From positions 1 through 24,932 of the IMG/VR virus record IMGVR_UViG_3300009705_000106: a DNA stretch of 24,932 bases; one strand, 5' to 3'. A program made the translations under genes and the position numbers. Positions 3,029 through 21,403 of this stretch are shown in pieces. The stretch's first letter is position 1. Every line of letters starts with the position of its first letter. The stretch comes from a virus. A model generated the notes under the pieces. The model saw only the letters and a program-made list of their open reading frames with translations, searched no databases and was not told the DNA's origin.

Positions 3029-4138
3029 TTATAGGTTACTCAGGTTTAAATCTAATGATTCAATATCAAAGTTACTACCCTTTCTTTTAGCATGGGCTGT
3101 CCCTTTAACGTTACCACTTGACTTAATCTTTTTTCGCAGGCTTGTAGCATTTGATGTCTTTGCCTTAGCCGCGATAATATCTTTTAAGTTAAATCCTTTG
3201 TACATTAAGTAATCAATAGCCAACTTAACATCTTTACTTGATTCTTTATGTGCTTTTTCTCTTTCAGTTACACCCTCAGCATCAGGTTTACTTAAATAAT
3301 CAAAGAATTTACTTTTATCTTTTTCTTGAACTGTAATACCAGCAAAATCCTTAGAGTTCTGAATTGTATCATTTATTTCATCCCAGAACTCTCTTTGTTT
3401 TTGTTGATTAGCTTTTTGCTCACGTTTTTGAACCTCTAAACTATTATCTCTTTCTTTTGTATAATATTGATTCAAAGCAGTTTTTGCTTTAACAGCTTTT
3501 TCATATAATTTATTAGTTTCTGTATAATCATCTAATAATTCATTTACAAATTCTGCATCATGTCCTTTTAATTTAAAGTACTCACCAAGCACAGCTCTCT
3601 GAGTTCTTAAATCATCTTCAGTAACTTTAACATTTTCAAAGTCATCCATTTGTACAGTTGACTTCATCCAGTCTGTAGATTTACCTCCATTTAAGAGAAA
3701 ATCTAAATGTTTTTGAACTTCAGGATAAGATTGAAATAATCCATCTAATTGGTCTTCTGCTATTTTTGATCCAACAGCTTTAGCTAATTTAACTAAACCA
3801 TCTGATGTATCTTCAAAATCATCATCAGGAAATTCATACCCTAATTGAGAAAGAACTTCATTTACTACAGTATCATCAACCTCGGACTCTATTACTTCTT
3901 CCTCTTCAACTTTAGGTTGTGTTTTACGTTTTGTACTTACTGCTTCCTTCTCCTCAACTTTTTCTACTACATCTTCATCGAGTTCTAAGGTAGCCTCACT
4001 AATATCTTCATCTGTAACTTTTTCTTCTTGTTCTACGATTTCACCTTTAGTTTTTTCTTCTGGTTCTGTCGTGAGACCTTCGCCTATGAAATTATCAAAG
4101 GTGATGTCTTCTAATTTTAACTTATTTTCGTCTGCCAT
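3029..4138 (-). CDS. Probable head scaffolding protein
   Basis: A 369-residue, highly charged protein. Residues 20-100 are strongly acidic (runs such as EEKVTDEDISEATLELDEDV and KVEEEEVIESEVDD). The middle is predicted helical or coiled coil with many Lys, Glu and Gln. The C-terminus is basic (SLRKKIKSSGNVKGTAHAKRKG) and ends in a short hydrophobic LDLNLSNL tail. An acidic coiled-coil protein with a basic end lying immediately before the capsid gene is the standard profile of a scaffold that is lost or cut during maturation. No protease signature is seen. A promoter-like TAAATTTGC lies just before the gene, which would let scaffold and capsid be made in excess over upstream products. Confidence 0.72.
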   Translation of the reverse strand: MADENKLKLEDITFDNFIGEGLTTEPEEKTKGEIVEQEEKVTDEDISEATLELDEDVVEKVEEKEAVSTKRKTQPKVEEEEVIESEVDDTVVNEVLSQLGYEFPDDDFEDTSDGLVKLAKAVGSKIAEDQLDGLFQSYPEVQKHLDFLLNGGKSTDWMKSTVQMDDFENVKVTEDDLRTQRAVLGEYFKLKGHDAEFVNELLDDYTETNKLYEKAVKAKTALNQYYTKERDNSLEVQKREQKANQQKQREFWDEINDTIQNSKDFAGITVQEKDKSKFFDYLSKPDAEGVTEREKAHKESSKDVKLAIDYLMYKGFNLKDIIAAKAKTSNATSLRKKIKSSGNVKGTAHAKRKGSNFDIESLDLNLSNL

Positions 4139-4231: not shown

Positions 4232-7200
4232 TTATATTTTCATACCGGAGTGAAATACATTAATTGGTTTTAACCCCTTATCTATAAGCCTCATGTTTAG
4301 ATTATCCATCTCTTCCCAATAATCTGTATTGTTTTCATCTTTATAATCTTGAGGTATTTGTATAACTTGGAATTTCTCATCAACTAATTCAAGAATCTTT
4401 GAATCAGCATATCCTGGATTATCAGCTTTTAATTTTATACCATAGCGTAATTTATCTATCATGATTTGAGCTTGTACATTTTCGCCTTCTCCTATTCCGT
4501 TGAGTTCCCTAAGTATCTTTGCCTGGTCGGAATTGCCTTTAGAGAAGAAACTTTTACCTCCTGTCTGATCTTTAAATATTGAATTAGTTTTACTAGTCAT
4601 AAATGTTGCACCTTGTTCTGCCGCATTAGCAGATGTAGTTTTGCTTCCAACATACTCATGATCATCATCAAAGTCTACTGCAGTTGTATTTGTAGTTAAC
4701 ATAGAGGCGTACAGCATTACACTGTTAGAATAATTTCTATCCCCCTCTTCCATATAATTAAAGAGTTTTTCTTTGTTTACACTCTCAGGATGAACATGCA
4801 TAGAAGCAGCAACATAGTCTAAAGGTACACCATCATATGTATTATCCTCATAATTATATTTAGGACCTCTTTTTAGTTTTTGTTGATAATGTAAAAATTG
4901 TAATATACCTGCATCAATCGAATTAGACATGCCACGTTTTCCAGAAATTCCACTACCAAGATCATCCCCAGCTGTTAATCCATTTATCCAGTTTCCCTCT
5001 TCATCTTTATAAATTAATCCTGACTTTTCATACCAACGACCTAATTGAGTCATACTTCCGTCTTGATTTTCTACCTGCCAATCAACTTTTATACGCATTA
5101 TTCCTTCACTAGGAGGAGAAGTTACTTGGGACTCGTCAAAAACCATGCCAAGTAGGCTTTTTGGTACATTATCTTTAACCCATGTCATCAGCATACCTTT
5201 TTGCTCACTTCCAAACATTCCTGGATCACCAGTTTCAGTCATATATGTACCATATAATAGTGAAGCAGCGTGAGAAACTGCTTCTTCAGTATATCCAGTA
5301 AGCCTAGATATTCTTGAAATAGGAGAATTCTCTCTAGACTTTGCGTATGTACCTTCAAGGTCATTTTCGTCAAACGTATTATTCTCCGTCTTAAAGGCTA
5401 AATATTTCTCCATCGCTATATTATATCCTTCCGCATCACCTTCATAGTCCTCCTGCCGTGGCATATAATCCCTGTTGAAATTTATATTTCCTGAGAGATA
5501 ATCAGTAAAGAACGTTGCACTTTTCTTTTGTTCCTTATCTAAATTCTCATAATATTCACTATTAATATCATAAGAGGTTACTTGTTTAACATTTTCTTGG
5601 ACAAAACCCGCTATTACACCAAAGTTAGCTTTTTCATCTGAATTAACTAATCCTGGAGGCCTAGTAACACCTTGAATAAAATAATTAGGTTGGTCATATG
5701 CTAGAGCATCATCTCTCTCTTCTCCTCCTTCCCAATTTATTTGATCTATTCTTTCTACATACATTTTACCACTAACACCATGCATAATTAAAGGCACGCC
5801 TGTAGAAGGATCTCTGCCTACAATAAATCCTGTGTGTCCAGTACCTGTATTTGTACTTTGATCATATCCTGCTTTCTTTCCTCCTTTCCTATCTCTTTCT
5901 CCCATATGCCTCATATCTCCTGTACCAGAACCTAAATGAACAACATCTCCTACATTAAAAGTGTTCCAGACTTCCATAGGAGGAAATCTTTCAGATTTAT
6001 TAGTTGTTCCAATCTCCTTTCCGTCTGCAGTAAAAGTTCCAATAGCCTGTTGGGACCATATATTTTGCCCTCCATGATCCATCATATACCCCTGCCTGTA
6101 CCAACTATGTGCTGCACCCGCTTGCATATTGGGATCATCTTGACCAATTTGTAATGATTGTGGAAATAACATTTGTAGCATATCAGTAGTTTGTTCTGAA
6201 CATGACTGTCCTGTACATCCTATCTTATCCCACTTCCAATCTGTGTTCCATTCAGGTAAATGAGTTAAATGGTTATTCCCATAGTCATAGGTTGCTTCTA
6301 AAGTTTGTGTATTAAATGTACCAGTTTGATTTACTGTGTAACCTTTCTTTGCTAAACTATTTTGTAAATTAGAATAAGAGTTAGATTTAGAAGTAGTCAC
6401 AGATTCTGTATTTCCAGATTTATGTGGATGGGTATGACCATTCGTTCCAACAGGTGGAATATATCCTGAATCTCCAGGCTTACCAAAACCTCCCTCATGC
6501 AGTTTCATTTTATTAGCTCTTACATTATTTCCAGATTCTTTTTCCCACTTTGCTAATTGCTTTTGAGTTTCATCTCCCCACTGTTGATCCATATTTCCTG
6601 CCTTAGTTGTAGACTTAGGTAATTTATACCCTAGACCTACTAAAGCTTCTTGTATATATCCTATTGATTTTTCTTTATCATTACCATTCACTAAAGCCCA
6701 TGCATTTTGTAATACTGCATTATAATCTTTTCCTTTTAAAGAATAATTAGCATTTCTATATAATTCATCATAAGCATGGCTATCTCTACCTGTTATATCC
6801 ATTGTTGGGAATCCCGCTTTGATAGCATCTAAAACTTTAGCTGGACTATCTACCATTCCCAAAACTCTACAAACTTTTTTACCATTCATATCTAAAGCAA
6901 AACCATCTGCTGTAACATCAGCACAATTATTAGTTAAAAAATTATAAGCTTCATTTCCCACAATATCTCCTGCTTCTATAGCATCATGAAAATCTTGCCA
7001 AGTTTTAATTTTTCCCTTCATGTCCTTACCTTCTCCGGCTTTATAAATTGTTCCCCCAAGTACTCCTTGCTGTTTTAATTCTCTACTAGTTAACTTTTGT
7101 AATTGAAGATGTGTTTTTAAATATTGTTTTTGCTCAACACCAAAAACCATTGTTTGAGATCCTGTTGTTTTTCCATCTTTAATAGTTGTTGAAGAACTTC

Positions 7201-15699: not shown

Positions 15700-15726
15700 A
15701 AAGGGAGAGAAATCTCCCTTTTTTTT
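15700..15726 (+). terminator. Strong intrinsic terminator with GAAA tetraloop
   Basis: A perfect 9-bp stem, AAAGGGAGA/TCTCCCTTT, closes a GAAA loop and is followed by a run of T to 15726. It lies 3 bases after the stop of the 116-residue gene and should end that transcript efficiently. Confidence 0.93.
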
Positions 15727-15728
15727 AA

Positions 15729-15881
15729 ATGAACATCACTTACTATGTCGTGAGAGCGTGTACCAGGCCTCTCACACCTCTTTTAACCCTTAATGTATCA
15801 CTATGTATTTCAGGAGCATTAGATAAGTATAACACAATCATAAAGGAAGAGAGACTTTCTTTATTTAATTTAAAACCTTGA
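15729..15881 (+). CDS. Doubtful 50-aa ORF between terminator and lysis-like cassette
   Basis: An ATG right after the terminator opens a 50-residue frame (MNITYYVVRACTRPLTPLLT ... SGALDKYNTIIKEE) ending at a TGA inside the CCTTGACA motif. A 7-bp hairpin GTGAGAG/CTCTCAC (15750-15775) lies within it. The frame may be chance, and this stretch could instead be a promoter and leader for the next genes. No family is recognised and no ribosome site is seen. Confidence 0.25.
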   Translation: MNITYYVVRACTRPLTPLLTLNVSLCISGALDKYNTIIKEERLSLFNLKP

Positions 15882-15883
15882 CA
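15876..15883 (+). promoter_or_regulatory. CCTTGACA start-adjacent motif, copy 1
   Basis: ACCTTGACA followed by ACA and the ATG at 15887 (3-base gap). It is the same 8-mer as at 16377 and 16652. It might be taken for a sigma70 -35 box, but it sits too close to the start codon for that. Confidence 0.5.
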
Positions 15884-15886
15884 ACA

Positions 15887-16159
15887 ATGGAAGAGCAACA
15901 AGAGTATGTAAGTAAATTTACTAAAGACTATTATCGTAATAAGTATGTAGAAGCAATTAATAAGATTGCAACTATGACTGGTAAGATAGTAGATCTTCAA
16001 CAACAGTTATTAGACTCTGATAAAAGAGATGTACAACTAATAGAGTATAAGAACTACAATAAATTAGCACATGAAAAGATAGCTGATTTAGAACAACAAT
16101 TAATAACCTTGACAGAGAAGAGCCAACTCGATAACACTGGTAACAAAGACAATGAGTAA
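15887..16159 (+). CDS. Coiled-coil protein (90 aa) at the head of the lysis-like cassette
   Basis: I start this at ATG 15887 (MEEQQEYVSKFTKD) rather than the TTG three codons earlier, because that TTG belongs to the repeated CCTTGACA motif. The 90 residues are almost entirely helical, with hydrophobic heptads in EAINKIATMTGKIVDLQQQL and AHEKIADLEQQLITLTEKSQ, so a dimeric or trimeric coiled coil is likely. There is no signal peptide or membrane segment. Its last codons overlap the next ATG (ATGAGTAA). Its role is unknown. A fourth CCTTGACA (16107-16114) lies within its coding sequence. Confidence 0.75.
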   Translation: MEEQQEYVSKFTKDYYRNKYVEAINKIATMTGKIVDLQQQLLDSDKRDVQLIEYKNYNKLAHEKIADLEQQLITLTEKSQLDNTGNKDNE

Positions 16160-16310
16160 AGAATTTAAATTAAAAACAGAGTTTATCCCTTATTTTGGAG
16201 GACCAGGTATTGGAATAGACAAATCAAGTCAGTACAAAGGAATAGTAATTATATTACCATTCTTATCAATTAGCATACTAATGAAGATTAAAGATCCATT
16301 AGCATTATAA
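16152..16310 (+). CDS. Small membrane protein (52 aa), holin-like candidate
   Basis: An ATG overlapping the previous stop opens a 52-residue frame. After a polar N-terminus (MSKEFKLKTEFIPYFGGPGI) comes one hydrophobic stretch, GIVIILPFLSISILM, flanked by Lys, then KIKDPLAL. One membrane span and its place just before a lipoprotein and an endolysin-like gene make a holin or lysis regulator possible, but single-span proteins of this size have many roles. Confidence 0.65.
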   Translation: MSKEFKLKTEFIPYFGGPGIGIDKSSQYKGIVIILPFLSISILMKIKDPLAL

Positions 16311-16342
16311 TTACAATACCTAAGCAAGTGTATAAACTGCTT

Positions 16343-16367
16343 GTAGTACTACATTTTGTAGTATTAC
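16343..16367 (+). promoter_or_regulatory. Long hairpin in the leader of the lipoprotein gene
   Basis: GTAGTACTACA and TGTAGTATTAC form an 11-bp stem with one G-U pair and a 3-base TTT loop. It stands in the 75-base gap before the lipoprotein gene, 18 bases ahead of its ATG and 9 bases before the CCTTGACA motif. The bases after it are not U-rich, so it is not a standard terminator. It could be an RNA-processing site, a translational operator or a protein-binding palindrome. Confidence 0.6.
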
Positions 16368-16376
16368 AATTTAATA

Positions 16377-16384
16377 CCTTGACA
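16377..16384 (+). promoter_or_regulatory. CCTTGACA start-adjacent motif, copy 2
   Basis: ACCTTGACA followed by a single G and the ATG at 16386. Here the TTG is not in frame with the gene, which argues against the motif being an alternative TTG start codon. Confidence 0.5.
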
Positions 16385-16385
16385 G

Positions 16386-16676
16386 ATGAAACAATTAACA
16401 TGGATATGCTACATAACAGCACTAATGATACTAAGTACATTATTAATGTCATGTGCATGCAGTATTACACCACGACAAGCAAAGATAGATTATGAATTAG
16501 AGAAAGCATACTTAGAGTATAGTTATGAAAGAGATTCATTAATCATAGAATTCTATCGAACAGATGTCATTGAAGAAGATGGTGTAAGATGGTATACATT
16601 AGATAGTATTATTATCAATAAAACAAATATTAATCAGCCTACTGGGCTAAACCTTGACAAAGATGAAAACAAATGA
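16386..16676 (+). CDS. Lipoprotein (96 aa), spanin-like candidate
   Basis: A 96-residue protein with a lipoprotein signal: hydrophobic span from about residue 5 (TWICYITALMILSTLLMSCA) and lipobox L20-M-S-C23. The mature part starts with a charged helical segment (IDYELEKAYLEYSYERDSLI) and ends with a beta-like and polar tail. Being directly followed by a membrane-anchored CHAP amidase, it may be an outer-membrane spanin subunit or an entry-exclusion lipoprotein. Its end overlaps the next start by 14 bases, and the third CCTTGACA lies within its coding sequence. The lipid anchor is clear; the lysis role is inferred from neighbours. Confidence 0.75.
   Translation: MKQLTWICYITALMILSTLLMSCACSITPRQAKIDYELEKAYLEYSYERDSLIIEFYRTDVIEEDGVRWYTLDSIIINKTNINQPTGLNLDKDENK
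16652..16659 (+). promoter_or_regulatory. CCTTGACA start-adjacent motif, copy 3
   Basis: ACCTTGACA followed by AAG and the ATG at 16663 (3-base gap). It lies inside the upstream coding sequence, in a reading frame different from copy 1's, so its conservation is not explained by protein coding. Confidence 0.5.
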
Positions 16677-17355
16677 AGATGTGTACCAAACAGGTACAGT
16701 AAAATATATGGTTAACTCTAAAGGGCATAAAGTCGCTGCTTATAAATCTAACTATGTAACAAAGCCTAAAACTTGGATACAAAGAAACATACGTTATCCT
16801 TATGATGCAATACTAATGTGGATTGGTATTCTAAGTGCAATAGCAATACTACTAATATCATTATCATCATGTAGTCTGCCTTTACAATGTGGTGATACTA
16901 TAGGGTCATTTAATGGAGTTACTGCTCATTATAACTCAGGAGACATTAATTCATGTGAAGATGAAAGACACATATCTAGTGATGGATATTCATATGGATT
17001 TAAATGGCAATGTGTAGAATACATTAGAAGATACTACAAAGATGTATTTGATCATGAAATGACTAGATGGGGACATGCTAGTGGTTATCATGAACAAGAC
17101 ATTAAAAACGGAGGGTTCAATGAAACACGACAACTTACACAATATGATAATGGTATGGAAATGCCACAAGTACATGATATTATAGTTTGGCGTGGTAAAT
17201 ATGGTCATGTAGCCATAGTCACTAAAGTAGAAGATGGATATGTTCACACAATAGCTCAGAATGTTGGAGAATATTGTGAAGCAAGATTGGAACTAGATGG
17301 TAAAACAATAGCTCCTGGATTTAATGTTGCTGGATTTCTAAGATTAGAAAAATGA
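16663..17355 (+). CDS. Membrane-anchored CHAP-domain amidase/endopeptidase (endolysin)
   Basis: I start at ATG 16663 (MKTNEDVYQTG), the ATG next to the CCTTGACA motif, giving 230 residues. The cytoplasmic N-terminus is followed by one membrane segment at about 48-67 (AILMWIGILSAIAILLISLS). From about 100 to the end is a CHAP domain: catalytic Cys in FKWQCVEYIRRYY (C117), His in GKYGHVAIVTKV (H182), and further strands YVHTIAQN and FNVAGFLRLEK. CHAP enzymes cut peptidoglycan cross-links or the amide bond. The anchor suggests a signal-arrest or membrane-tethered endolysin that acts on the periplasmic face. Its stop overlaps the next ATG (ATGA), so the two are coupled. Confidence 0.85.
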   Translation: MKTNEDVYQTGTVKYMVNSKGHKVAAYKSNYVTKPKTWIQRNIRYPYDAILMWIGILSAIAILLISLSSCSLPLQCGDTIGSFNGVTAHYNSGDINSCEDERHISSDGYSYGFKWQCVEYIRRYYKDVFDHEMTRWGHASGYHEQDIKNGGFNETRQLTQYDNGMEMPQVHDIIVWRGKYGHVAIVTKVEDGYVHTIAQNVGEYCEARLELDGKTIAPGFNVAGFLRLEK

Positions 17356-17900
17356 GAGTAATTGCAATTATATTAATAATTGGAATGCTCTCATACATTC
17401 TAATGACTAGGAAAACAAATGTTAAGAGAACACTTGATGCTCATTATGACACCATTTATCTTAAGGATAATGGTAGTCATCTTGACATCATACTTCAAAA
17501 TGAGGCACGAGTGTATAAAGCTTATGGATGGGGAAGTAAAGAGTTTTATACAAATGTACCAACTTGGGGTGATCTTTCATTTAAGAAAGCTTTAAAAGCT
17601 TTATTTTATGATGAATCAATTATAAGAGTTAATACTTATCACGATTTATCATCTGAATGGATACCAATTAAAGTATCTAAACAAGAGTTAACTTACATTG
17701 AACAATCAATATGTAATAGCTTTAAAAGATACGAAGGTAACATATACTATATATCAAGTGGATTACATGAAGCACATGGACAATATACACCGTTCAATAC
17801 ATGTAATACATGGGTAAATGATATATTTAAAGGCGCTGGATTATTATCACGCAAGTGGTTAATATTTAGTTCAGGACTGTCTAACCTTTATAAAGAGTAA
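17352..17900 (+). CDS. DUF2459-family protein, putative membrane-tethered cysteine peptidase
   Basis: A 182-residue protein with an N-terminal membrane segment (residues 2-18, VIAIILIIGMLSYILM). The rest follows the DUF2459 pattern: HLDIIL (H43, D45), YKAYGWGSKEFYTNVPTWGD (the 'WG...FY...PTW' block), and TPFNTCNTWVNDIFKGAGL with C151 in the TCNTW signature. The His and Cys fit a papain-like peptidase fold, although no activity has been shown to my knowledge. Here it is coupled (ATGA) to a CHAP endolysin, so a second wall-cutting or lysis-related enzyme is a reasonable guess. It ends before a non-coding region. Confidence 0.8.
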   Translation: MRVIAIILIIGMLSYILMTRKTNVKRTLDAHYDTIYLKDNGSHLDIILQNEARVYKAYGWGSKEFYTNVPTWGDLSFKKALKALFYDESIIRVNTYHDLSSEWIPIKVSKQELTYIEQSICNSFKRYEGNIYYISSGLHEAHGQYTPFNTCNTWVNDIFKGAGLLSRKWLIFSSGLSNLYKE

Positions 17901-17952
17901 TACTTTACTAGCGTAGAGTAACAGATAGGTAGGAGCGATCCTATGAATAGAA

Positions 17953-17964
17953 ACAAGTATTACG
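17953..17964 (+). repeat. 12-bp direct repeat ACAAGTATTACG, copy 1
   Basis: ACAAGTATTACG occurs here and again at 18299-18310, 346 bases apart, in a non-coding region. It may mark the borders of an inserted or duplicated piece or be two binding sites. Confidence 0.6.
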
Positions 17965-18298
17965 ATAAGAAATCATTGTTAGCGCAAAGATAATTGTTGT
18001 AACTCTAAATCACTTTAGTTTGGTATGCAAGCAGAACTTTAGTGAGCCTATCTATTGCTCTTTATATTATAATAATAAACTAAAGACTACATCAATTAGA
18101 CAAGTTATAACCAAAGAGGTCACACTGCTCTGGTCTTTAGATACAAAGTGGATAAATGTGATATACCCAGGCACCACACTTGTTAATAGAGAACTGGGAA
18201 AGAAATAAGAAAGGCTGTACATTAACAGAGTAATGTCGTCGTAGCATTGCAACAGCGTATTCCTAAGCACGAAGACAAAAGGCTTTTTATTTAAAAAT

Positions 18299-19516: not shown

Positions 19517-21403
19517 ATGATATATTTCGTAGGACCTGACTCAATATTACCATGTTGTGAAGAAGCAACTATGGAGTATGTTGTAAGCTACTGCAGCTCT
19601 AAAGATGTACTAGGTGTAGATACAGAAACAGAAGGATTAGACTTTACTTGTAAGAAAATGATAATGTTTCAAATAGGTGATGGAGATAATCAATTTGTAA
19701 TAGATACACGACATGTTAGTATAGAACCATTAAGGTCAGTTCTAGAAGATACTAATATAACAAAGATCTTTCATAATGCTAAATTTGACTACAAATTCAT
19801 CAAGAAGTGGTCGGGCATTACTTGTCAAGGGGTGTACGATACATTTCTTGCTGAAGTAGTCAATAATTGTGGAAGAAAGATAGGCTTTGGATTAAAAGAT
19901 TTAGTGCAAAGAGAGTTTAATGAAGAGCTAAACAAAGAAGTTAGAAACAAGTTTGTTAGACTTGAAGGACAACCATATACAGAGAGTCAAATAGTTTATG
20001 GTGCTAAAGATGTAGAGTATTTATGTAAACTAAGAGATATACAGATGCCTAAAACTATAGCTAACAATCTTGAGAATATAGTAGCTTTAGAAAATGATGT
20101 AGTACTTGCATTTGCAGACATAGAATATAATGGCTTAGATTTAGATACAACTCAATGGACATCATTAGAGAGCGCGTCTACATTAAAGGCGGATGGATTA
20201 GCTATTAATTTAGATCAATTAATAATAGAAGATGATAAGCTTAATAGATTTGTTAAAGAATATGTACAAGCGGACATGTTTACACCTTTAAAGGACATAC
20301 GAAAAATAGATGTAAAGTGGACATCACCTAAACAGGTGCTTGAAGTATTTCAAACTATTGTTCCTGAGCTAGATGATGTAAATGGTAAAAATATGTATAA
20401 ATATAGATTTAATCATGAGATTATAGATACATACATACAATACAAAGAAGCTATGAAATTATGTACATCTTATGGTCAATCATTTTTAAAAAACATTGGA
20501 GCTGATAATAAAGTCCATACTAACTTCCATCAAATACTAGATACTGGTCGAGTGAGTAGCAGTAAGCCTAATATGCAGCAGATACCTGCTGACAATAAAT
20601 ATAGGAACTGCTTTGTTGCGCCTGAAGGTTGGAGCTACGTAAGTGCTGATTACTCAAGTCAAGAGTTAAATGTAATTGCCTTTGGATCTAAAGACCCTGT
20701 TTGGTTAAAGGCTTTAGAAGAAGGACAGGACTTACACTCTACATGCGCTGAACTAGTATATGGTGAAGAATGGATGGGCAGTGGTGAAGACAGTTGTGCT
20801 TACCTTAAGAAAAAGGAAAAGTGCAACTGTCCTAATCATAAAAAGCTTAGAACTAATGTTAAGACTATTAATTTTGGTCTTGCTTATGGTATGGGCCCAA
20901 ACAAACTATCAGACACTCTTAATATAAGTATAGATGAAGCTAAACTTCTTATTAAAAAGTATTTTAAAGCTTTTCCCGCTATTAAAGGGTTCTTAGACAA
21001 GTTAGGTGCGTATGGTGTTAGGTATGGTTATATCAAGACATTTCCACCTTATAATAGAAAGAGATGGTTTACTAACTGGTATCCTAAAATATGGGATAGT
21101 AGAGCATCAAAGTTAGAACTTGGTAGTATTGAGAGAGCTAGTAAGAATACTCCAATACAAGGTGCTAGTGCAGATATGACTAAACGTGCTTTAATATTAA
21201 TGCGCGGGCATATAGCTGGTAGTAACGCTCCTGTAAAGCTAGTGATGACTGTACATGATCAGATAGATACTATATGTAAGAATGAGTATTTAGATGAATG
21301 GACAGTGATTATGAAGAAAATCATGGAGTACGCAGCTAAAGAGATAGTAACAAATGGCTTATTAAAGGCTGAAGTAACAGTAAATAATTGTTGGACTAAA
21401 TAA
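19517..21403 (+). CDS. polA: DNA polymerase I-type (family A) with 3'-5' exonuclease
   Basis: A 628-residue replicative polymerase. Exonuclease motifs are complete: Exo I D35-x-E37 (VDTETEG), Exo II H86-N-x3-D91 (HNAKFDYKF), Exo III Y161-x3-D165 (YGAKDVEY). The palm has motif A with D378 (SADYSSQELN), the O-helix RTNVKTINFGLAYG (R445, K449, F453, Y457) and motif C at TVHDQIDT (H580, D581, Q582). Family A enzymes usually have HDE, so Q582 is unusual. Between motif A and the O-helix is an insertion-like segment with C427, C436, C438 and H441, a possible metal site. No 5'-3' exonuclease domain is present, as in phage-type enzymes. Downstream genes begin 7 bases away. Confidence 0.95.
   Translation: MIYFVGPDSILPCCEEATMEYVVSYCSSKDVLGVDTETEGLDFTCKKMIMFQIGDGDNQFVIDTRHVSIEPLRSVLEDTNITKIFHNAKFDYKFIKKWSGITCQGVYDTFLAEVVNNCGRKIGFGLKDLVQREFNEELNKEVRNKFVRLEGQPYTESQIVYGAKDVEYLCKLRDIQMPKTIANNLENIVALENDVVLAFADIEYNGLDLDTTQWTSLESASTLKADGLAINLDQLIIEDDKLNRFVKEYVQADMFTPLKDIRKIDVKWTSPKQVLEVFQTIVPELDDVNGKNMYKYRFNHEIIDTYIQYKEAMKLCTSYGQSFLKNIGADNKVHTNFHQILDTGRVSSSKPNMQQIPADNKYRNCFVAPEGWSYVSADYSSQELNVIAFGSKDPVWLKALEEGQDLHSTCAELVYGEEWMGSGEDSCAYLKKKEKCNCPNHKKLRTNVKTINFGLAYGMGPNKLSDTLNISIDEAKLLIKKYFKAFPAIKGFLDKLGAYGVRYGYIKTFPPYNRKRWFTNWYPKIWDSRASKLELGSIERASKNTPIQGASADMTKRALILMRGHIAGSNAPVKLVMTVHDQIDTICKNEYLDEWTVIMKKIMEYAAKEIVTNGLLKAEVTVNNCWTK

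Follow-up and report, generated by a model that had tools for sequence, protein, structure and literature searches.

Known start-associated sequences and the element described here

Short, asymmetric and directional repeats in gene junctions are known from cluster A mycobacteriophages, in which L5-type stoperators, scattered through the genomes of these temperate phages, serve as DNA binding sites for a repressor. Mosaic phages carry boundary or linker sequences, short stretches that are shared where the neighbouring genes differ. The start-associated sequences (SAS and ESAS) of cluster K mycobacteriophages are found 3-7 bp before starts, have the consensus GGGATAGGAGCCC, which contains the Shine-Dalgarno core, and have been proposed to act at translation start (PMC3203893). 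On several mRNAs of phage T4, the RegA operators lack structure and lie either at the AUG or immediately 5' of it; they are A+U-rich, show loose conservation and take in the AUG itself (PMC3014915).

Here, we analyzed a 24.9-kb stretch of viral DNA (IMG/VR record IMGVR_UViG_3300009705_000106, hereafter the window), in which the 8-mer CCTTGACA recurs within a lysis-like gene cassette. Judged from its sequence and placement, this motif is a conserved, cassette-specific start-associated element of crAss-like phages, new in sequence and setting and known in kind. Like the cluster K SAS, it is a short, asymmetric and non-palindromic repeat located in sense orientation (13 of 13 sites) a few nucleotides from starts (within 1-3 nt at 8 of the 13), and it precedes different gene families and is confined to one phage lineage. 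On the other hand, it has no Shine-Dalgarno core, it is present in 2-4 copies per phage that are confined to the cassette (cluster K genomes have 11-19, distributed across their non-structural half), and in place of the 17-bp inverted repeats of ESAS only some distal copies show TTGAC/GTCAA. The inferred host phylum differs as well. The eight proximal copies resemble RegA operators in that they are unstructured and placed at or just 5' of the AUG, where they would suit occlusion of initiation, but the motif is an exact 8-mer rather than a loosely conserved, A+U-rich site that includes the AUG. Unlike stoperators, it is restricted to one cassette, tightly tied to the ATG and without a known repressor. 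It shares with boundary sequences its occurrence where neighbouring genes differ, and is distinguished from them by a position fixed to start codons and a sequence under constraint.

If this assignment holds, start-associated sequences also occur outside mycobacteriophages, in a form unrelated in sequence. The lysis timing of crAss-like phages is poorly known, and delayed lysis with overlapping expression stages has been described for crAss001 (PMC8375218). A tag shared by lysis genes would provide a testable handle both on this timing and on start selection in Bacteroidota, which do not use Shine-Dalgarno pairing (PMC6847099).

Genomic context of the lysis-like cassette

The head protein encoded in the window matches phrog_11589 (E 2.4e-86) and is about 30% identical to Crassvirales capsid proteins over 94-100% of the query. 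This crAss-like major head protein places the phage, on the basis of sequence, among the crAss-like phages (Crassvirales), and its hosts are likely Bacteroidota. Structural genes are located on the minus strand, while the cassette, followed by the polymerase and helicase genes, is on the plus strand. The cassette comprises a coiled-coil-like gene (90 aa, 15887..16159), a small membrane-protein-like gene (52 aa, 16152..16310), a lipoprotein-like gene with a lipobox-like LMSC (96 aa, 16386..16676), and a CHAP-domain endolysin gene with an N-terminal membrane span (16663..17355), all on the plus strand. The endolysin (PF05257, E 8.6e-15) is the only member identified by family; lysis roles of the other genes are suggested by their position, as is the possible function of the small membrane protein as a lysis helper. 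The sequence-only reading had described the motif as marking a lysis-like cassette, and this description is supported.

A strong terminator-like hairpin of the intrinsic type separates the 15346 gene from the cassette (15700-15721 in the window, 6017-6037 in the relative L092), so the cassette is probably transcribed separately in both phages. Directly 3' of the endolysin, positions 17352-17900 encode a DUF2459 protein (PF09601, E 2.5e-28), an unusual gene to find beside a lysis cassette. The endolysin's N-terminal region (an EVWYC.NSKG.KIPPY-like sequence plus the membrane span, 16663-16800) looks like a mobile module, which occurs by itself in L134 (4325-4510) and L143 (519-690) and as a fusion with a lipoprotein-like tail in L173 (1366-1660) and L157 (1074-1365).

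Motif copies at the starts of cassette genes

Three plus-strand copies of CCTTGACA lie 1-3 nt before an ATG, as had been noticed from the sequence alone. Specifically, the copy at 15876..15883 precedes the coiled-coil-like gene (ATG 15887) by 3 nt, that at 16377..16384 precedes the lipoprotein-like gene (ATG 16386) by 1 nt, and that at 16652..16659, which is inside the 3' end of the lipoprotein-like gene, precedes the CHAP endolysin gene (ATG 16663) by 3 nt. The TTG within the motif shares the frame of the following gene at 15878 and 16654, but not at 16379, and the earlier argument that a varying frame speaks against an alternative start is upheld. A fourth copy (16107-16114) had been reported as simply inside a gene; its position is correct, but it is also the head of a conserved leader (16104..16151, plus strand) that extends to ATG 16152 of the small membrane-protein gene.

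The window contains five copies in total, against 0.56 expected from dinucleotide shuffles, and 0 of 100 shuffles reached five. Among repeated 8-mers with at least four G/C, CCTTGACA ranks first in the 20 nt upstream of the 26 gene starts of the window (three starts), and the recurrence of an 8-mer before starts never exceeded two in 20,000 shuffles. The fifth copy, absent from the sequence-only reading, is on the minus strand (19823-19830), antisense to the DNA polymerase gene. Its complement corresponds to the conserved CQGV codons of the polymerase and recurs in relatives both with and without the cassette motif, and this copy is therefore unrelated to the cassette motif. An antisense RNA was rejected, since these polA codons, which are also present in relatives that lack the motif, are the only sense-strand complement in the window.

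Distribution of the motif among relatives

Relatives were retrieved by searches with the capsid, the endolysin, the upstream gene and the polymerase. One record (G001/L091) is nearly identical to the window and ends shortly past the first motif. Three further distinct phages have a readable cassette, namely G002 (L092, 93 kb), G005 (L095, of which L300 is a near-copy) and L130, and the motif is carried by three of three further distinct CHAP-endolysin phages in the viral collection. Motif sites are located at 6315, 6844 (CCTTGATA) and 7128 in G002, at 3216 and 2950 on the minus strand in G005, and at 150, 489, 672 (CCTTGATT) and 895 in L130. Together with the window, this amounts to 13 sites in four phages, of which the five distal ones lie 36-40 nt from the ATG. 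Across the 93-kb record of G002, no further sense-strand copy in such a context exists outside the cassette. A lack of enrichment near starts across the genome had been named by the sequence-only reading as a refutation, and taken literally it applies here: the motif is a local tag and does not serve as a translation signal for phage genes in general.

What lies behind the motif varies from phage to phage. In L130 they include an unrelated 90-aa gene and a lipoprotein-like gene, the coiled-coil genes behind it differ between G002 and G005, and in the window it also precedes a lipoprotein-like gene. Since relatives retain the motif in front of differing genes, it probably serves the lysis genes as a common control tag and is not a product of chance. 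A chance repeat, or a duplication relic devoid of function, might be considered for a sequence of 8 bp with so few copies per phage, but the start-adjacent recurrence was never reached in the 20,000 shuffles and conservation in four diverged phages with different genes makes this explanation very improbable. The sequence-only reading had also named as a refutation related phages with unrelated sequence before the same genes. The motif is kept in three other phages. The CHAP gene, which carries it in the window and G002, lacks it in two of the four (G005 and L130), and among more distant relatives, those whose small genes are related (L134, L143, L149, L157, and L173) have ordinary AT-rich starts unrelated to the motif.

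In a polA tree, the four motif phages belong to a group of 12 rows, in which motif-free records also occur; at least one of these (L132) ends before the cassette. The occurrence of the motif therefore follows the cassette and does not strictly track polymerase descent. A scan with TAAACCTTGACANNNATGAA yielded five new matches, three of them the same sequence, and no second start-adjacent copy in any. A long-form match in the GC-rich phage L115 was dismissed as a chance coding match, and the tag was absent from cellular CHAP relatives among the matches listed.

Conservation of the leaders

The distal copy at 16107 heads a conserved leader of about 48 nt that ends at the ATG of the small membrane-protein gene and is found at the same place in three relatives. 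An alignment of five distal leaders (columns numbered by the first sequence) contains 36 invariant columns out of 54 from just before the motif to the ATG, as opposed to 1 of 42 upstream. The leader overlaps upstream coding sequence in one frame in the window and L130 and in another in G005, and is non-coding in G002. Constraint therefore apparently acts on the nucleic acid itself, as the leader is kept in three coding contexts. For comparison, the window and the other motif phages share only 47-67% identity at fourfold-degenerate polA sites.

The window leader before the lipoprotein-like gene (a hairpin, an AT stretch and CCTTGACAGAT) is nearly identical to the CHAP leader of G002 (L092 7128), and this homology ends directly after the motif, which indicates that the tag is retained where the gene that follows has changed. 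Such a pattern would be expected of a short stretch of homology at gene borders through which lysis genes are exchanged and which regulates nothing: the motif is the exact point at which homology between the window and G002 changes, between two copies the lipoprotein gene is either there or missing, and gene content varies between phages while the motif stays. However, 12 bp is short for homologous exchange, a pure linker would need neither the 1-3-nt spacing to the ATG nor a distal leader conserved up to it, and ongoing selection is needed to keep the motif identical between phages that have diverged at neutral sites. We therefore regard a recombination junction as rather improbable.

Sequence context and structure at the motif

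With its upstream bases included, the wider context of the motif reads WWAACCTTGACA. The 10 nt upstream are at least 80% AT in 12 of the 13 sites; the exception is the 16652 copy, which is in coding sequence (5 of 10). This context would suit a promoter or transcript start, in which an AT-rich stretch and CCTTGACA are recognised by a phage-modified RNA polymerase and late transcription starts separately at each lysis gene, giving a leader that is very short or about 40 nt long. A variable distance to the ATG (1-3 or 36-40 nt) would be natural for a transcript start, and the terminator-like hairpin that both the window and G002 have ahead of the cassette is also compatible with it. On the other hand, the tight spacing of all eight proximal copies is unexpected, a start downstream of the motif at a 1-nt gap would cut off the ATG, and the AT stretch is missing at the 16652 copy, whose location in coding sequence disfavours a promoter. 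Nor is a sigma-70 -10 box or any fixed second element visible. These observations make a promoter doubtful, though it is the most plausible of the alternatives. The earlier view that the motif is not a -35 box proved correct for sigma-70: the TTGACA form was rejected because no -10 hexamer is found 16-18 nt downstream of any of the four copies.

Of 12 folded sites, 10 were no more structured than shuffled sequence, and the stable hairpins of the other two are placed upstream of the motif, which is itself unpaired or weakly paired in single-strand folds. A stable hairpin (16340..16369, plus strand) lies upstream of the 16377 copy and recurs ahead of the CHAP gene motif in G002. A hairpin operator was rejected on these grounds. 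The TTGAC...GTCAA dyad of the distal form was also set aside, as it is present in L095, L130 and (by wobble) L092 and broken in the window and L092_cc.

A linear, unpaired motif in intergenic and partly coding positions would likewise suit a nuclease that cuts there and makes or destroys translatable lysis mRNAs, a processing site for which the T4 RegB nuclease, cutting at GGAG, provides precedent (PMC3014915). A cut site needs no fixed distance to the ATG, however, and no RegB homologue was found in a search that had no positive control, on records that may be incomplete. Processing is accordingly an improbable account, slightly more so than recombination.

Possible role in translation initiation

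The explanation that we favour, with confidence a little short of even, is that CCTTGACA is a start-associated cis-element which co-regulates the lysis cassette genes of a group of crAss-like phages by controlling translation initiation. The invariable sense orientation, together with a spacing of 1-3 nt at each of the eight proximal copies, points to the translation start. At the mRNA level, the motif would be recognised as a short stretch without structure just 5' of the start codon or, alternatively, at the head of a fixed leader of about 37-40 nt. A phage or host factor bound at it, with AAACCUUGACAAAGAUG as its putative RNA target, would act as a joint translational switch for the lysis genes. 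The most likely effect would be to hold them back, since the cassette, which shares its strand with the replication genes and precedes those for polymerase and helicase, could be transcribed while virions are still incomplete. A protein bound at the motif would occlude the start, as T4 RegA does, although direct occlusion fits poorly with the five distal copies. Counting against a lysis element are the CHAP genes of G005 and L130, which do without it, and the small number of phages (four) that carry it. A more specific version, in which a dedicated phage factor recognises CCUUGACA next to lysis-gene starts and gates their translation as a lysis-timing switch in hosts without Shine-Dalgarno pairing, is possible and more tentative. 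Among four records, which may be incomplete, no match to RegA (PF01818) was obtained in a search that had no positive control, and no CsrA homologue was found.

The translation enhancer, mRNA operator and processing site suggested by the sequence-only reading all retain some likelihood, and conservation in relatives with different genes supports a cis-regulatory role. Pairing with (flavobacterial) 16S rRNA was rejected, since 16-79 of 100 shuffled motifs, according to the version of the flanks used, formed a duplex as good as the best one; the near-match with a bulge, UGUCAGGUUAA, was equalled by 16 of 100. With complementarity no better than that of shuffled motifs, the element does not behave as a Shine-Dalgarno or rRNA-pairing leader. 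The start context of Flavobacterium has A at -3 and -6 (PMC6847099). What the motif places at these positions changes with its spacing, and the copies with a 1-nt gap do not share this Kozak-like context of Bacteroidota, having C at -3 and T at -6.

Conserved non-coding blocks near the cassette

Two further blocks of non-coding sequence are conserved among these phages. The first lies 3' of the endolysin (window 17905-18075, L092 7800-7985, L095 1978-2100 on the minus strand, L130 2052-2185) and ends in ...TTAAATTACATTTGT-TGGTATGCAAGCAG...GTGAGCCTRTCTATTACTC; it is a candidate structured RNA, for which Rfam and ARAGORN returned no Rfam or tRNA match. The second (window 18200-18295, L092 6255-6315, L095 3235-3365 on the minus strand, L130 2500-2612) reads CGTATTCCTAAGCAYGAAGACAAA..GCTTTTT with a T run at its end, and is located just before the first cassette motif in L092 and L095.
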